From NCBI GenBank assembly GCA_021740845.1, contig JAIOYZ010000004.1, positions 118,142 to 182,141 on the forward strand: DNA of 64,000 bases. The letters are read 5' to 3'. Positions within the stretch are counted from its first letter, which is position 1, and every line of letters begins with the position of its first letter. Below, piece by piece: positions 51,336 to 58,285 of this stretch. Under the pieces are notes generated by a model that was not told the origin of the DNA, searched no databases, and saw nothing but the letters and a program-made list of their open reading frames with translations. This DNA comes from Bacteroidia bacterium. Its GTDB lineage: Bacteria > Bacteroidota > Bacteroidia > UKL13-3. Both the position numbers and the translations under genes were made by a program.

Positions 51336-52772
51336 TTATACAGTTTCTTCTTGCTCTTCTTGTTGGAAGGCTTTGATGAAATTTTCCTTTTGTTGGCATT
51401 CACAATTCATTGGTAAAAAACGAGCACTAAAATGACGCAATTGTTTTGGTTGCCAAACAATTTTCATCCCTTTTAAAGATTCCTTATTTTGATTTATTTC
51501 TAATAAAGATTCAATCACATAATCAATATGACTTTGGGTATAAACCCTTCTAGGAATAGCCAAACGCACTAAATCCATCGGTGCTGCTTTTTCAGAGCCA
51601 TCCATTTGCAAGCCAAACATAACGGTTCCAATTTCGCAAGCACGAATACCAGCATTTAAATACAATTCAACTGCTAAGGCTTGTCCTGGATATTCTAATG
51701 GATCGATATGAGGCAACATGCTTCTTGCATCAATATAAACTGCATGTCCACCCGCAGGTCTAACAATTGGTATTCCTGCCGCCGTTAAATGATCTGCCAA
51801 ATATTGTGTGGAGCTAATTCTATAATGCAAATAATCTTGGTCAACTACTTCTTCTAAACCTGTTGCGATTGCCTCTAAATCCCTTCCAGCTAATCCACCA
51901 TAAGTTGGAAAGCCTTCTGTTAAAATCAATAAATTTCTAGCTGCTTCTGCCCATTCTGGATTGTTCATGGCTAACCATCCGCCCATGTTTACCAAAGCGT
52001 CTTTTTTTGCACTCATTGTACAACCATCCGCATAGGAAAACATTTCTTGTACAATATCTATTATAGCTACATTTTCATAACCGGGTTCTCTTAATTGAAT
52101 GAAGTATGCATTTTCGGCGAACCTACAAGCGTCCATAAACAAAGGGATATCGTATTTCATACAGATATACTTGGTTTGTTTAATGTTTTCCATAGAAACA
52201 GGCTGACCACCTCCCGAATTATTGGTAATAGTTAGCATTACCAATGGAATGTTTTCAGCACCTTTTTCTTTGATAAAAGCTTCCAATCTTTCGATATCCA
52301 TATTTCCTTTAAAAGGATGAACAAGGTTTGGAATTTTACCTTCAGCAATTACCAAATCAATAGCTTCTGCACCTGTAAATTCAATATTAGCGCGAGTAGT
52401 ATCAAAGTGAGTATTGTTTAAAATGTATTTTCCTGGCTTGCCAATGATGGAAAATAAAATCTTCTCTGCGGCCCTTCCTTGATGGGTAGGAATGATATTG
52501 GTAAACGGCATTAACTTATAAACTGCCTTATGAAATCTATCAAAAGATGGACTACCTGCATAGGATTCATCTCCTCGCATCATAGACGCCCATTGGTTGG
52601 CGCTCATACTGCTCGTTCCGCTATCTGTAAGTAAATCAATAATTACATTTTCGCTATCTAAAGCAAATAAATTATAATGTGCTTTTTCTAGAAAAGAAGT
52701 TCTTTCCTGTCGGTTGGTCATTCTAATAGGCTCAACAGATTTGATCCTAAATGGCTCAATTATAGTTCTCAT
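51336..52772 (-). CDS. tnaA: Tryptophanase (L-tryptophan indole-lyase)
   Basis: This PLP enzyme splits tryptophan to indole, pyruvate and ammonia. The 478-residue protein shows the beta-eliminating lyase hallmarks: EPFRIKSVEPIRM, DLLTDSGTSSMS, PTHQGRAAE, AYFIQLREPGYEN, the PLP lysine in DGCTMSAKKDALVNMGG, and YGGLAGRDLEAIATGLEE. Tyrosine phenol-lyase is the nearest alternative. There the segment after GxR reads MERG, with the substrate-binding Arg. Here it is ACEIG as in E. coli TnaA, favouring tryptophanase. No tnaC-type leader or tnaB permease is visible; the downstream neighbour is DUF5606. Confidence 0.88.
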   Translation of the reverse strand: MRTIIEPFRIKSVEPIRMTNRQERTSFLEKAHYNLFALDSENVIIDLLTDSGTSSMSANQWASMMRGDESYAGSPSFDRFHKAVYKLMPFTNIIPTHQGRAAEKILFSIIGKPGKYILNNTHFDTTRANIEFTGAEAIDLVIAEGKIPNLVHPFKGNMDIERLEAFIKEKGAENIPLVMLTITNNSGGGQPVSMENIKQTKYICMKYDIPLFMDACRFAENAYFIQLREPGYENVAIIDIVQEMFSYADGCTMSAKKDALVNMGGWLAMNNPEWAEAARNLLILTEGFPTYGGLAGRDLEAIATGLEEVVDQDYLHYRISSTQYLADHLTAAGIPIVRPAGGHAVYIDARSMLPHIDPLEYPGQALAVELYLNAGIRACEIGTVMFGLQMDGSEKAAPMDLVRLAIPRRVYTQSHIDYVIESLLEINQNKESLKGMKIVWQPKQLRHFSARFLPMNCECQQKENFIKAFQQEEQEETV

Positions 52773-52901: not shown

Positions 52902-53987
52902 ATGAAAGAAATTACACAAAAAATACTTGCTGGAACCTCTTTTTTGCTTCTGCTTTTAGGTCTGTTTTGGATGGGTCAAAATAAACCAGTAAAGGCCGTT
53001 AAGGCGGTTTACCATTGGAAAACTGATTTTGAAGAATCTTGGGTAAGTGCTGCAAGAGATTCTTTTTTGGAGGAGCATTCTATCAGAAAAGTTTATGTTA
53101 AAATGTTGGATGTTGACTACAGCGAAGCTGCCGGAATATTTCCAGCTTCTAAAACTAATATGCCTTATTCCTTCAGTCATATTTTTGATAGTGTAACATT
53201 TGTTCCAGTAGTTTATATTTCAAATTTGGTAATGAAAAACATGAATTCCAGCCAAATTGAATTTTTCTCAAAACAATTTTTGGTTCACGCTTTAAGAATT
53301 GAAACCTATACAAATAAAAAGGTGAGCGAAATTCAGGTTGATTGCGATTGGACTGAAGGAACTAAAGAAACCTATTTTCAAGTATTAAAAACAATGAAAA
53401 AATGGGCTCCGCAATTGCAAATTACGGTAACATTGCGCTTGTATCCATTTAAGTATAGGGAGGAGTTGGGGATACCGCCTGCGGATAGAGTTATGCTTAT
53501 GGTTTATAATATTAATAATGCCAAAAAGTTCTCCAATAAAAATAGCATTTTTGATGCTCATGAAGCATCGAAATACTTGAAAAGAAAATCCTATCCATTG
53601 CCAATGGATATTGCATTGCCAGTTTTTAGTTGGTCATTGATTTTTAGAAATCAACAATTTTTAAAAGTATTTTCTTCTTCTATTATTCCAACAATTTATA
53701 GTAGAGAAATGGAAGATGAGTCTAAAGAAACCTGCCTAAAGAAATTGACAAATAGAATGTATTTGGTTCAACAAAAACCTAGTGGTTATGATCCATTTGA
53801 TTTGCGAGCCGGGGATATTATCAAAATTGAATCTTGTGGCGAAATGGAGTTAAAAGAAGCAAGTTTAATTACCTATGGTTTGCCAATTAATGAGAATTCT
53901 ACAATTGCTTTATTCGACCTTGATATGAACGATTTAAACCAAATTTCTTATGACCAAATTGAAAGCGCTTTTACTCTTTTTCATTAG
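52902..53987 (+). CDS. Secreted/anchored protein of unknown function (DUF3142-like TIM barrel?)
   Basis: This 361-residue protein has one hydrophobic N-terminal segment (ILAGTSFLLLLLGLFWMGQ). Its body begins AVYHWKTDFEESWVSAARDSFLEEHSIRKVYVKMLDVDY and continues with VYISNLVMKNM and EIQVDCDWTEGTKETYFQVLKTMKKWAPQLQITVTLRLYPFKYR. This order of strands and an acidic DCDW at a strand end suggest a TIM-barrel glycosidase-like fold, loosely like DUF3142, without proof. It overlaps the next gene by 38 bases, so the two are translationally coupled and likely work together. Start: ATG 52902. Confidence 0.75.
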   Translation: MKEITQKILAGTSFLLLLLGLFWMGQNKPVKAVKAVYHWKTDFEESWVSAARDSFLEEHSIRKVYVKMLDVDYSEAAGIFPASKTNMPYSFSHIFDSVTFVPVVYISNLVMKNMNSSQIEFFSKQFLVHALRIETYTNKKVSEIQVDCDWTEGTKETYFQVLKTMKKWAPQLQITVTLRLYPFKYREELGIPPADRVMLMVYNINNAKKFSNKNSIFDAHEASKYLKRKSYPLPMDIALPVFSWSLIFRNQQFLKVFSSSIIPTIYSREMEDESKETCLKKLTNRMYLVQQKPSGYDPFDLRAGDIIKIESCGEMELKEASLITYGLPINENSTIALFDLDMNDLNQISYDQIESAFTLFH

Positions 53988-56355
53988 TCTGTTCTTGTTA
54001 GTTTGGCCACCAAAACAAACCAATAGTTGTGGCTTTTATATTCTGCAAGAAGAGTACAGATTTTGGTCGTTTGATCCAAGTAATAATGCTGTTGCAGGCA
54101 TGCATCCATTTTTCTATTCTATGGAATTATACCATAATGGATTTGATATAGAAAACCGCTTTTATGTGAATGAAATAAATACAAATTCAATCGATGAATA
54201 CGAGCAAAATATGGATCAATGGTTAAAATATATTTATAAGGTTGATCCAAACGCAAAGGTAATTAAGGATGATATTTATGAAGTATTGTATGAAATTAAT
54301 CCCATTGATTATTTTGCAATTTTGGATGGGTTAAAAAAGGAAAATTCCTTTGTTGAATTTGCCTCAAAATATCCTTCTGTTTTGGAGTATCTCAGTTATG
54401 CTAAAAAATCAGAATACCAAAGTAACTATAAGGATGGATGGATTTGTGAATCTTGCCCAGAATTGGTTTCTCCAGGAAATTTTAAACCAGGAGATAGATA
54501 TTTTTCCAATTACAATGTAAATCCAGATCCAAATAATGGAATGGAGTTAATTGAAAATGGATTGAAATATTTAACAAAAGAGAAAGATAAATTTCTTCAA
54601 GAAAGATTTGCGTTTCAAATTGTTCGTTTAGCTTATTATAATTTAGATTCCTTGAATTTAAATGAAGCTTATTTGAAATATTTAGAACCTTTAACCGATC
54701 AAAATTGGTTAAAGGGTGCTGCCAATATGTACCATGTTTTAAATCTTACGGGTCCAAAAAGAAATTTAGGATTAGCCAGAATTTTTGATGCTTGTCCTGA
54801 TAAAAGATATCGCTGCCAGCAGTTGTTTCAAAATGATTTATTTGATGAAACAGTAGAATTAGCCAATAATAATCATGAAAGAATGTTGTTGGAAGTTATT
54901 CATTCAATTAGTAATCCAAATGAGCAACTTCAAATCATTAAGAAAATTGGTCGGTTTGAACCAAATAGTAAGTACCTGCCAGCATTGTGGGTGCGCGAAA
55001 TAAATAAGTTGGAAGACTGGATTTTAGGTCCTCTTTATTCTGATTTTGGTTCTACGAAAAATGATCATATGAGGTATGAATCTGAAATTAGAAATGCTGT
55101 TCAAAGTCAATTGACGAAAGATAAAAAATATGCTCTGGAAGTAGCCCAATACCTTGAAAATTCTAATTCGCTAGTAAGTTCTTCCTCAAAATCTTTTCAT
55201 CATTTGTGCTTGGGTTATTTGTATTTTATTTTAAAAGATTTGAATAAGGCAGAAGAAAATTATTCTAAGGTTATTCCAAATGAATTGGATGAAATTGGCA
55301 AGGTGCAATTCAGTTTGAACCAATTTATGCTTCACCTTTCTCAAACTCAAAAAGTTACCCCTCAACTCGAAAGTGATTTAGCTAACTGCCTACAACTTTT
55401 GGTTCAAACCGAAACCAAATACCCACAACGTAAAATGATGAAATTCCAGTTGATAAATTTTGCTGCAAAAGAATTTTTTGATAGGGGAGAACGAGCTAAA
55501 GGGTTGCTTTTATTTGGTTTTTCAGCAAAACCATATGCTAGCCATTCTTTATTAGGAATTGGAAATATGTATACCCAAATTTATTCTTTGGCTGAACCAA
55601 AGGACATAGATGAAATGCTATTTGTTTTAAGTAAAAGAAATCCAAATTCATTGGAGAAATATATTCAAACCCATAAAGTATATTCTTATACGTATGATTA
55701 TGGTGATAACATGGAATTCATAAACAAGAATAAATTGCTTGATCTAAAAAGTATGCTTTTGGTTCAAACAGATAAATTGCTTGAAGCCCACGCTGCTGTA
55801 AATAAAATTGATACTGCCTATTGGAGCAATGAAGTGTATAGTTTATTTAAAAACGACAATCCATTTTTAATCAATCCGTGGAATGGTCATGCTCCTATGA
55901 ACGAAAGGAAGCTGGTTTATAATAAAGCCACTTTCCTAAAAGAATTAATAGAATTAAAGCAAAAAGCTGCCTTGGCTCAAGGTGAACAAAAAGCCAAATT
56001 GAACCTGAAAATTGCGAATGCTTATTATAGCATGTCGTATATGGGCAAGTATTGGATTATGCAGAAAAATTATCAAGGTGGTTCTGAACCCGACGAAGAT
56101 AAAACTGATGTAAATCCAGAATATTATTCAGCTGCAAGAGCAAAATATTATTACCACCAAGTGCTAAATTCTACTAAAGACCCCCAATTAATAGGTATGG
56201 TGGTTTATATCTTGCAAGTTGCATTTTCGCCCAACTCTTCAGAAATTGCTCAAAATAAGTCATATCTGAAAAAGAAATCTGGAGCTTTAGATATTTATGA
56301 ACAATTAAGCGGAAACTGCGCATTGTTCTATGAAATGGCTGAAAGATATAATTAA
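53950..56355 (+). CDS. Large secreted helical-repeat protein of unknown function
   Basis: This 801-residue protein has a signal peptide (ALLLFFISLFLLVWPPKQ) followed by TNSCGFYILQEEYRFWSFDP. The Cys at residue 27 could be a lipidation site, but the TNSC box is poor. The rest is helical and repeat-like, with TPR/Sel1-like character (LCLGYLYFILKDLNKAEENYSKVIP, AYYSMSYMGKYWIMQKNYQGG). Aromatic residues are frequent. It carries two exact copies of the iterated motif (54953, 55401). It overlaps the previous gene by 38 bases; I recognise no family. The pair is probably an envelope-associated two-protein system; this is inference. Confidence 0.78.
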   Translation: MTKLKALLLFFISLFLLVWPPKQTNSCGFYILQEEYRFWSFDPSNNAVAGMHPFFYSMELYHNGFDIENRFYVNEINTNSIDEYEQNMDQWLKYIYKVDPNAKVIKDDIYEVLYEINPIDYFAILDGLKKENSFVEFASKYPSVLEYLSYAKKSEYQSNYKDGWICESCPELVSPGNFKPGDRYFSNYNVNPDPNNGMELIENGLKYLTKEKDKFLQERFAFQIVRLAYYNLDSLNLNEAYLKYLEPLTDQNWLKGAANMYHVLNLTGPKRNLGLARIFDACPDKRYRCQQLFQNDLFDETVELANNNHERMLLEVIHSISNPNEQLQIIKKIGRFEPNSKYLPALWVREINKLEDWILGPLYSDFGSTKNDHMRYESEIRNAVQSQLTKDKKYALEVAQYLENSNSLVSSSSKSFHHLCLGYLYFILKDLNKAEENYSKVIPNELDEIGKVQFSLNQFMLHLSQTQKVTPQLESDLANCLQLLVQTETKYPQRKMMKFQLINFAAKEFFDRGERAKGLLLFGFSAKPYASHSLLGIGNMYTQIYSLAEPKDIDEMLFVLSKRNPNSLEKYIQTHKVYSYTYDYGDNMEFINKNKLLDLKSMLLVQTDKLLEAHAAVNKIDTAYWSNEVYSLFKNDNPFLINPWNGHAPMNERKLVYNKATFLKELIELKQKAALAQGEQKAKLNLKIANAYYSMSYMGKYWIMQKNYQGGSEPDEDKTDVNPEYYSAARAKYYYHQVLNSTKDPQLIGMVVYILQVAFSPNSSEIAQNKSYLKKKSGALDIYEQLSGNCALFYEMAERYN

Positions 56356-56587: not shown

Positions 56588-58285
56588 ATGCTAACCATAA
56601 TCCATCACAAATTCTTAGCCGACAAGTTAAAAATAACTTCTTGGGAAATACTTGAACCCTATTTTACACAATTACTTAATCGTGAGATAAACTCCAAACA
56701 AGAATTGGAGCTTTGGTTAAAACACCGCAGCGAGCTAGAAGCTTTTGTGAGTGAAGATTTAGCTTGGCGTTATGTTAAAATGACTTGCGATACAACTAAT
56801 AAAGCATTAGAAGAATCGTACTTGTTTTTTGTTAGCGAAATTGAACCAAAGATTTCTCCTTTCAACGATGCTTTAAATAAGAAATTAGTTGCTTGCCCTT
56901 TCCTTACTGAATTGGATCAAGACAAATACTTTATTTATTTGAGAGGTTTGAAAAAAGAGATTGAATTGTTTAGAGAAGAGAACATTCCAATTTATGCTAA
57001 AATAGCTGCAGAATCTCAAAAATATGGCACCATAATGGGTGCTATGAGTGTGGAAATGGAAGGTAAAGAACTTACACTTCAACAAGCAGCAAACTATCTC
57101 AAAAATCCAAATAGAACATTGCGCGAAGAGGCTTTTCGTAAAATAAATGAAAAGCGAGCTGCACATACAGAAGAGTTAGATTCTTTGTTTGATGAGCTTA
57201 TTTCTTTGCGCCACCAATTGGCTATTAATGCGGGTTTTGAAAACTACAGAGATTATATGTTTGCTGCCATGGGTCGTTTTGATTATACCCCAGCAGATTG
57301 TTCTAATTTTCATGAAGCAATACAAAAGCAAGTATTGCCTTTGGTAAAAGTTTTTAATGAGAAAAGAAAAGCAGATTTAGGCCATGATCTTCGCCCTTGG
57401 GATATGGAAGTGGATGTTGCCAATCGCCCCGGTTTGGAGCCTTTCACCAGTGGTGCAGATTTGCTAGAGAAAACCATAAAATGCTTTGCCAAGGTGGATG
57501 ATTATTTTGCTTATTGCATCAAAACAATGGACGATATGAATCGTTTGGATTTGGAGAGCAGAAAAGGAAAAGCACCGGGTGGATATAATTATCCAATGGC
57601 AGAAACTAGTGTTCCTTTTATTTTTATGAACGCTGCCAGCAGTACTCGCGATGTAGAAACTATGGTTCATGAGGGTGGCCATGCAGTTCATTCTTTTTTA
57701 TCCAAAGATTTGGAATTAGCTGCCTTTAAAAATTGCCCAAGTGAAGTTGCCGAATTGGCAAGTATGAGCATGGAATTGATAAGTTATGATGGTCAAGATG
57801 AGTTTTATCCAAACCCAGAAGATTTTAAAAGGGCAAAAGATGAACATTTAGAAGGCATTATTAAAATTTTACCTTGGATAGCAACTATCGATAAATTTCA
57901 ACATTGGATTTATACCCACCCAACACACACACGTGAAGAAAGAAAAGCTTATTGGGCGCAATTAAGCAAAGATTTTGGAACAGGAATGGTAAATTGGGAA
58001 GGCCTAGAAATGTATCAAGCTTATACTTGGCAACGTCAATTGCATTTGTATGAAGTTCCTTTCTATTACATTGAATATGGCATGGCTCAATTAGGTGCTT
58101 TATCTGTTTGGCGCAACTTTTTAAACAATAAAACCAAAGCCATTGAGCAATACAAAAAAGCTTTGAGTTTAGGCTATACAAAAACCATAGGCGAGATATA
58201 TGAAACAGCTGGAATCAAATTTGATTTCTCCGAAAATTATATCAAAGATTTAATGGACTTTGTTTCTGCTGAATTAAAAAAATAA
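56588..58285 (+). CDS. M3 family oligoendopeptidase (PepF-like)
   Basis: This 565-residue cytosolic zinc metallopeptidase cuts oligopeptides. The zinc motif is VETMVHEGGHAVHSFL (HExxH with two His and Glu), followed downstream by the third ligand region EVAELASMSMELISYDG. Other family segments are AMSVEMEGKELTLQQAANYL, NRTLREEAFRKIN and QAYTWQRQLHLYEVPFYYIEYGMAQLGALSVW. It is slightly shorter than classical PepF (about 600). It stands alone on the plus strand, and a motif copy (58311) lies before the next gene. Confidence 0.93.
   Translation: MLTIIHHKFLADKLKITSWEILEPYFTQLLNREINSKQELELWLKHRSELEAFVSEDLAWRYVKMTCDTTNKALEESYLFFVSEIEPKISPFNDALNKKLVACPFLTELDQDKYFIYLRGLKKEIELFREENIPIYAKIAAESQKYGTIMGAMSVEMEGKELTLQQAANYLKNPNRTLREEAFRKINEKRAAHTEELDSLFDELISLRHQLAINAGFENYRDYMFAAMGRFDYTPADCSNFHEAIQKQVLPLVKVFNEKRKADLGHDLRPWDMEVDVANRPGLEPFTSGADLLEKTIKCFAKVDDYFAYCIKTMDDMNRLDLESRKGKAPGGYNYPMAETSVPFIFMNAASSTRDVETMVHEGGHAVHSFLSKDLELAAFKNCPSEVAELASMSMELISYDGQDEFYPNPEDFKRAKDEHLEGIIKILPWIATIDKFQHWIYTHPTHTREERKAYWAQLSKDFGTGMVNWEGLEMYQAYTWQRQLHLYEVPFYYIEYGMAQLGALSVWRNFLNNKTKAIEQYKKALSLGYTKTIGEIYETAGIKFDFSENYIKDLMDFVSAELKK

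Follow-up and report, generated by a model that had tools for sequence, protein, structure and literature searches.

What do two overlapping genes do that recur together across the Bacteroidota and belong to no named protein family? The pair in question, here called A and B, occupies positions 52,902 to 56,355 of a 64,000-nucleotide stretch of contig JAIOYZ010000004.1 (positions 118,142 to 182,141; assembly GCA_021740845.1) from a Bacteroidia bacterium of the UKL13-3 lineage; this whole stretch is referred to as the window. An original prediction, made from the sequence alone, had described the genes as a coupled envelope module of unknown function, for example a carbohydrate-processing enzyme plus scaffold. 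We found that A and B form a conserved two-gene unit, that A is predicted to have the fold of a glycoside hydrolase family 18 (GH18) chitinase with a conserved pocket mouth that lacks the catalytic Glu, and that B is predicted to be an exported helical-repeat protein. Our leading, still tentative, interpretation is that the two proteins make up a periplasmic module that handles a glycan of the cell envelope. The features referred to below are as follows, in window coordinates.

52902..53987, plus strand: gene A, ATG start, 361 amino acids including the stop; predicted GH18-fold TIM-barrel protein with an N-terminal membrane anchor (open reading frame (ORF), AlphaFold2 (AF2) model, family alignment)
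53950..56355, plus strand: gene B, ATG start, 801 amino acids including the stop; predicted exported, all-helical solenoid resembling tetratricopeptide repeat (TPR) proteins (ORF, AF2 model, family alignment)
53950..53987, plus strand: 38-base overlap of the 3' end of A with the 5' start of B (ORFs; recurs in relatives)
53340..53354, plus strand: codons 147–151 of A, encoding DCDWT, where barrel strand 4 ends (positions calculated from the residue numbering)
54028..54030, plus strand: Cys27 codon of B, where the predicted signal peptide ends; invariant in all 67 aligned relatives
56317..56319, plus strand: Cys790 codon of B, invariant in 67 of 67 relatives; candidate disulfide partner of Cys27, by a putative pairing

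The ORFs confirmed the 38-base overlap and the size of B given in the original prediction, and the overlap is more than chance. In an alignment of 67 B proteins, 65 of the A–B pairs were measurable (one row had no A in the alignment and one had no ATG), with the start of B taken as the first ATG yielding a leader of 16–34 residues. The overlap was kept in 63 of these 65 pairs, in the same relative phase in 62, and measured exactly 35, 38 or 41 bases in 50. A pattern scan of genome contigs provided a further set of named loci, the best 80 of 578 confirmed relatives, and in 75 of these B started between –150 and +100 bases from the end of A. Loci outside this range included two (L097, L109) in which the called A and B ORFs overlap beyond –150 bases, one with an A–B gap of ~390 bases (L075) and one with a gap of 4.4 kb (L098). 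At one locus (L072, Flavobacterium reichenbachii), two complete A–B pairs stand in direct tandem.

The two genes were searched for in three sets of genomes. With window A and B as single queries against 60 relatives, A matched in 22 genomes and B in 16. Among the six A genomes without a B match, one (G016) represents a fragment at a contig end; the gene following A carries a B-type leader and Cys, judged by eye, at L016, L017, L019 and L021, and not at L020. A profile search of 395 genomes of the class found A in 82 and B in 77; 76 genomes had both, six had only A and one had only B (Fisher p 5e-73). A same-strand B followed A within 3 kb in 70 of the 76 genomes holding both, the limit applying to the distance from the end of one match to the other, since B was often matched only in part. 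Deeper profiles applied to 345 genomes of the phylum, a set that shares genomes with the class set, gave a clear A in 43 and a clear B in the same 43, six of them outside the class. This count follows two cuts: the B matches of 11 genomes (E 3.9e-5 to 9.6e-4) were dropped as generic helical-repeat matches, and the A matches of G143 (8.3e-5, 38 positions) and G067 (a fragment) were dropped as not intact. Absences in both surveys are provisional, since the class runs scored the best five A and two B candidates per genome and the phylum runs up to six and three; all candidates were scored for G119, G120 and the genome of L108. Holders of the pair include records of Flavobacterium, Chryseobacterium, Pedobacter and Mucilaginibacter.

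The coincidence of clear A and clear B in these 43 genomes marks the pair as an accessory unit: most genomes lack it, and it is mostly gained or lost as a whole. The genes are not found apart in the majority of genomes, which bears out the proposal that their coupling reflects a functional unit. A is present in about one fifth of the sampled class genomes and the pair in about one eighth of the phylum genomes, yet neither protein is named in Pfam or NCBIfam. Six genomes hold A and B on different contigs (G051, G210, G246, G336, G385 and the genome of L108), so linkage alone is insufficient to account for their co-retention. The neighbourhoods of both genes were read in G051, G210 and G385, and no B stands beside A in G246 or G336. 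At L108, A has no nearby B; a B was then looked for and, as predicted, found on another contig (E 1.3e-174). In G124 the pair is non-adjacent, with both genes at contig starts. Several genomes scored as holding A only have ready explanations: B adjoins A in G201 when a deeper profile is used, A runs off the contig end in G386 and G289, G067 is the fragment mentioned above, and G409 is a 2e-4 match. The A and B trees also agree in genus g70, which has 29 A/B places in 18 genomes. There, A and B tree distances correlate with r 0.976 (the B of L230, in G548, is broken and its larger piece was used), both trees show the same three subtypes, and the subtypes match in 11 of 11 two-pair genomes. A separate arrangement was seen in G537, where three B genes stand in tandem (L248) and A lies on another contig (L247).

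The AF2 model of A is a TIM barrel, as the original prediction had suggested (mean predicted local distance difference test (pLDDT) 93.6; predicted template-modelling score (pTM) 0.90), with the barrel spanning residues of about 31–345. Foldseek placed the spore cortex-lytic enzyme SleL, which we take to be a GH18 protein, and chitinases at the top of its matches (best E 5.5e-9). VIA-align matched a putative chitinase domain (Z 17.6, root-mean-square deviation (rmsd) 4.6, 289 residues aligned), and its list was filled almost wholly by chitinases and chitinase-like proteins. Weaker Foldseek matches included the barrels of glycerophosphodiester phosphodiesterase and methylene-tetrahydrofolate reductase, as well as PgaB (4p7q, E 1.5e-3). 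The model thus predicts, with high confidence, a GH18-type chitinase fold, which sharpens the earlier TIM-barrel assignment.

Sequence searches placed A much further from known families. As the original prediction had stated, neither window protein has a recognisable family: no Pfam or NCBIfam family scored over its cut-off for A or B, and a search of PDB by sequence returned nothing credible for either. At the GH18 (PF00704) cut-off window A had no match, and its relatives reached at best E 0.045 in an alignment of 22 A proteins and E 0.075 in a larger set of 79. DUF3142 (PF11340), which had been put forward for checking, matched seven of the 79 A relatives (best E 6.1e-7), a weak but credible likeness that points to a distant relationship; window A itself gave no Pfam match to it. 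A search for DUF3142 in 198 genomes of the phylum returned no matches and its controls were silent too, so it is uninformative.

How far the pocket of A follows that of GH18 enzymes was judged from a profile alignment to 15 Bacteroidota GH18 domains, which placed VDCDWT of A on IDIDWE and MLMVYN on MMTYD (hhalign E 0.019, probability 2.4%; the register rests also on the shared fold). In this register Asp147 and Asp149 would be the GH18 aspartates, the catalytic Glu is replaced by Thr151, and the YD pair corresponds to Tyr202–Asn203. The DCDW motif noted earlier (residues 147–150) therefore falls on the GH18 DxDxE motif without its Glu. The 22-member alignment was not selected by motif. The 79 proteins were found with the patterns E[IY]QxD[CA]DW[TS] and [VA][DNE][RK][GV][MLT]LMxYN, and the two sets have members in common (L046, L047, L048 and L070 are contigs of G001, G002, G011 and G037). 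Residue 151 is T, S, N or G in 22 of 22 members of the smaller set, and in none of the 79 proteins of the larger one is it acidic. Residue 203, the Asp of MxYD, is Asn in all but one of those 79 and Asn, Ser or Gln in the smaller set, with conservation of the larger set at residues 143–151 and 194–203 being partly by construction. Asp147, Asp149, Trp150, Thr177, Arg179 and Tyr202 are unvaried in all 22, and residue 70 is an acid (Asp or Glu) in 78 of 79. Because the larger set was pattern-selected, enrichment of conserved residues at the barrel mouth was tested again on the 22 members, with strand limits taken from DSSP ranges. Residues identical in all 22 made up 12 of 48 positions at the C-terminal strand ends and 8 of 267 in the remainder (p 2e-6), and the enrichment held when strands 4 and 6 were excluded (6 of 36 and 6 of 252, p 0.0013). 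The N-terminal strand ends, on the opposite face, showed no enrichment (p 0.58). Judged by these residues, A is not a canonical chitinase. A conserved mouth without the standard acid points to one of two things, an enzyme of unusual type or a protein that binds its ligand without catalysis.

Export signals had been proposed for both proteins and were seen in both. B begins with a signal-peptide-like leader (AF2 helix 2–18), and the rest of its model is all-helical bar a few short strands (mean pLDDT 86.9, pTM 0.84), from which we predict an exported, TPR-like solenoid. VIA-align matched it to the LGN TPR domain (Z 11.8, rmsd 6.9, 303 aligned), a Z below 13, which for helical repeats may reflect a common arrangement only. 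Cys27 and Cys790 are the sole cysteines of B invariant in 67 of 67 relatives. Cys27 may be lipidated or may form a disulfide with Cys790; because the two are invariant together, we favour the disulfide.

In window A the export signal is an N-terminal hydrophobic helix (residues 2–24, from the sequence and the AF2 model). Most relatives appear instead to be lipoproteins: a strict lipobox occurs in 50 of the 79 A proteins and a loose one in at most 71, a count that includes chance matches in over-long N-termini, for example that of L047. Window A and its close relatives (L002–L012) keep a hydrophobic anchor and lack the lipid cysteine (window 52902–53020). The earlier description of A as anchored therefore stands for the N-terminal anchor, with the correction that the lipid cysteine of most relatives is absent. 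The lineage of the window may have switched from lipoprotein to inner-membrane anchoring.

The best clue to the substrate of A, though an indirect one, came from a gene fusion. In genus g142 (G270, G739, G757), A forms the C-terminal part of a fusion with a polytopic membrane protein. The G270 fusion (L175:5928-8549) has 874 residues, ~490 of them in the membrane part, and over its full length is 89% identical to that of G757 and 91% to that of G739; against DUF3142 it scored 14.3 bits, below the 30-bit cut-off. The membrane domain has seven separate hydrophobic regions on a simple scale and belongs to a family of which 17 members align. It gave no Pfam match better than E 0.98, no plasmid match and no PDB match; its look is presumably that of GT-C or YYY-like proteins. 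Stand-alone relatives of this domain matched in 28 genomes, and 12 of their loci were read. A GT2 glycosyltransferase lay nearby at 8 of the 12; Pfam confirmed this assignment in nine proteins and also confirmed one DegT aminotransferase. By comparison, none of the 57 A/B loci exceeding 11.5 kb carried such a GT2 gene. The profile used here derived from GT2 genes at the test loci themselves, and several of these loci share a conserved neighbourhood, so that the p-value of the comparison is optimistic. The membrane family had no match in the window genome and 59 relatives, in a search that yielded no matches whatever. We believe the fusion indirectly links A to membrane glycan assembly. Together with the fold and the conservation of the pocket, it suggests a carbohydrate ligand for A.

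On the interpretation that A and B form a periplasmic glycan-handling module, A would face the periplasm from a membrane, to which most relatives would be attached as lipoproteins and the proteins of the window's genus by an N-terminal anchor. A glycan chain would lie across its pocket, where Asp149, at the position of the GH18 catalytic Asp, and the acid at residue 70 may act without Glu, a mechanism also proposed for the GH153 domain of PgaB. B, perhaps pinned by a Cys27–Cys790 disulfide, would be the scaffold, binding A and either guiding the polymer or presenting it, by analogy with the TPR domain of PgaA. The unit includes neither a synthase nor a porin, so the glycan that it acts on would be one produced elsewhere. 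Of the carbohydrate enzyme and scaffold first suggested for this locus, the GH18-like barrel and the helical-repeat B are thus consistent with the proposal, and the absence of the canonical catalytic Glu counts against the enzyme. If the interpretation is correct, it would add a Glu-less GH18-type catalytic centre and an enzyme–scaffold pair unaccompanied by a synthase operon, and the question of which glycan is handled becomes directly testable in laboratory strains of Flavobacterium. A bolder version, which we regard as possible if doubtful, is that A founds a new, Glu-less family of glycoside-hydrolase type with the GH18 fold and that A and B are a self-contained, phylum-wide bicistronic enzyme–scaffold machine, with matched subtypes, that trims or remodels an undescribed envelope glycan of Bacteroidota.

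The closest known likeness to such a module is the PgaB/PgaA system. Excerpts of one study (PMC5933820) describe the hydrolase domain of PgaB as cleaving deacetylated poly-N-acetylglucosamine, with PgaB Asp474 aligned to the catalytic Asp of the GH20 enzyme DspB and no PgaB equivalent of DspB Glu184; a similar missing-Glu situation is described there in comparison with a GH18 chitinase. Excerpts of a second (PMC9384988) state that the PgaA TPR domain binds PgaB and polymer and raises the activities of PgaB. On the strength of these excerpts, the features that A and B would share with this system are a GH18-related barrel, a catalytic Asp without Glu, and a lipoprotein partnered by a TPR scaffold. 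There are also differences. A is a single barrel of 361 amino acids without the N-terminal deacetylase domain of PgaB, and B, in its AF2 model, lacks the outer-membrane beta-barrel of PgaA. No recurrent synthase genes lie near A and B, and no sequence relationship was found in a comparison with one PgaB sequence, to which hhalign gave only a 13-column match. We therefore propose by analogy that A and B may work like PgaB and PgaA, and we do not propose membership of that system. Relative to GH18 itself, A has the same predicted TIM barrel, with the strand-4 DxDx(E) and strand-6 MxY(D) motifs in register, and differs in having Thr, Ser, Asn or Gly for the catalytic Glu, YN for YD, and no sequence match near the cut-off.

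Several observations weigh against a glycan-handling module. A lacks the canonical general acid and may therefore have no catalytic activity. Apart from A and B, the 80 named loci had no recurrent neighbour, the next gene family occurring in 10 of 80, and the neighbourhood gives the proposed substrate no support from a polysaccharide operon. B had as its only Pfam row a TPR_1 match (17.9 bits against a cut-off of 27.8, stretch 419–442), and Foldseek matched it to TPR and other helical-repeat proteins weakly (best E 6.4e-3); the TPR families, put forward earlier for checking, gave no match over the Pfam cut-off, and the model agrees with the helical repeats first described. The fused membrane protein may not be a general partner of A. 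The congruence of the g70 trees fits co-evolution, and linked duplication alone could give the same picture. Finally, two genomes have A without an intact partner. In G119 (L165), a divergent A has no B within 3.3 kb upstream, within 5.6 kb downstream or genome-wide. In G120 (L291), an intact A has no adjoining B and the genome holds decayed B pieces only; a second A–B copy (L292) has both genes broken by stop codons, the pair decaying together, and only through this copy does G120 enter the count of 76 genomes with both. Residue 70 of A, acidic almost throughout the larger set, is Asn in both genomes. The A of G119 is also altered at Arg179, Tyr202 and Asn203, and that of G120 keeps all three. 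These two cases hint that the residue-70 acid is lost where an intact B is missing.

The nearest alternative, which we consider rather unlikely yet not far behind the leading interpretation, makes A a pseudo-enzyme: its GH18 fold would serve as a lectin, binding a glycan that it leaves uncut, and B would be the scaffold or adaptor, in the manner of chitinase-like proteins. The replacement of the catalytic Glu throughout both A sets and the change of MxYD to MxYN are what such a protein would show, and inactive chitinase-like proteins are known from excerpts of two reports (PMC3662789, PMC11190707). However, the strict retention of Asp147, Asp149, Arg179 and Tyr202 in the 22 members, with the nearly constant acid at residue 70 among the 79, in our judgement exceeds what a binding groove usually needs, and the GH153 barrel, as excerpted (PMC5933820), cleaves without Glu.

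We think it quite unlikely that the ligand handled in the pocket of A is something other than a carbohydrate, such as a peptide, a lipid headgroup or a phosphorylated metabolite, and that the pair is a complex for envelope maintenance or signalling. TIM barrels host many chemistries, glycan-synthesis genes do not recur beside the pair, and the weaker Foldseek matches include the phosphodiesterase and reductase barrels named above. The top folds from both programs are chitinase-type, however, the motifs fall in GH18 register, and the family of the fusion partner is linked to glycosyltransferases. It is less probable still that B is an assembly factor, for example a type 9 secretion accessory or an outer-membrane biogenesis scaffold, to which A would be the membrane tether. 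The fourth-ranked Foldseek match of B was chain I of the type 9 translocon entry 8gl8 (E 0.013), an entry that contains SprE among others. This match is weak, however, and one of many to repeat-protein chains. The entry was not among the 50 VIA-align matches listed for B, which excludes nothing. The genes also occur in just 82 of 395 class genomes, and if A were a tether and nothing more, its barrel mouth would have no need to be conserved. That A and B are mere neighbours with unrelated functions, as co-inheritance by linkage and the solitary A of G119 might suggest, is largely refuted by the six genomes with the genes on different contigs, the coincidence of both in the same 43 phylum genomes and the phase kept in 62 of 65 overlaps, and we regard it as almost certainly wrong.

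In the surroundings of the pair, a divergent beta-eliminating-lyase gene lies upstream of A (51336-52772, minus strand) and a peptidase M3 gene downstream of B (56588-58285, plus strand). A PADLOC scan for anti-phage defence of the window and one Chryseobacterium locus had no match for A or B, and a search of viral relatives with window A as query gave no pattern match. No description of the A–B pair was found in the open-licence literature, judged by titles and abstract openings. Two contigs carry an A–B pair under labels from outside the Bacteroidota. One, labelled Actinomyces viscosus (L082), has 30.4% G+C and is most likely a misassigned Bacteroidota contig. The other, a 91 kb contig labelled Deltaproteobacteria (L117), has 73.6% G+C over the 13 kb read, and its pair possibly reflects transfer outside the phylum or a binning error.

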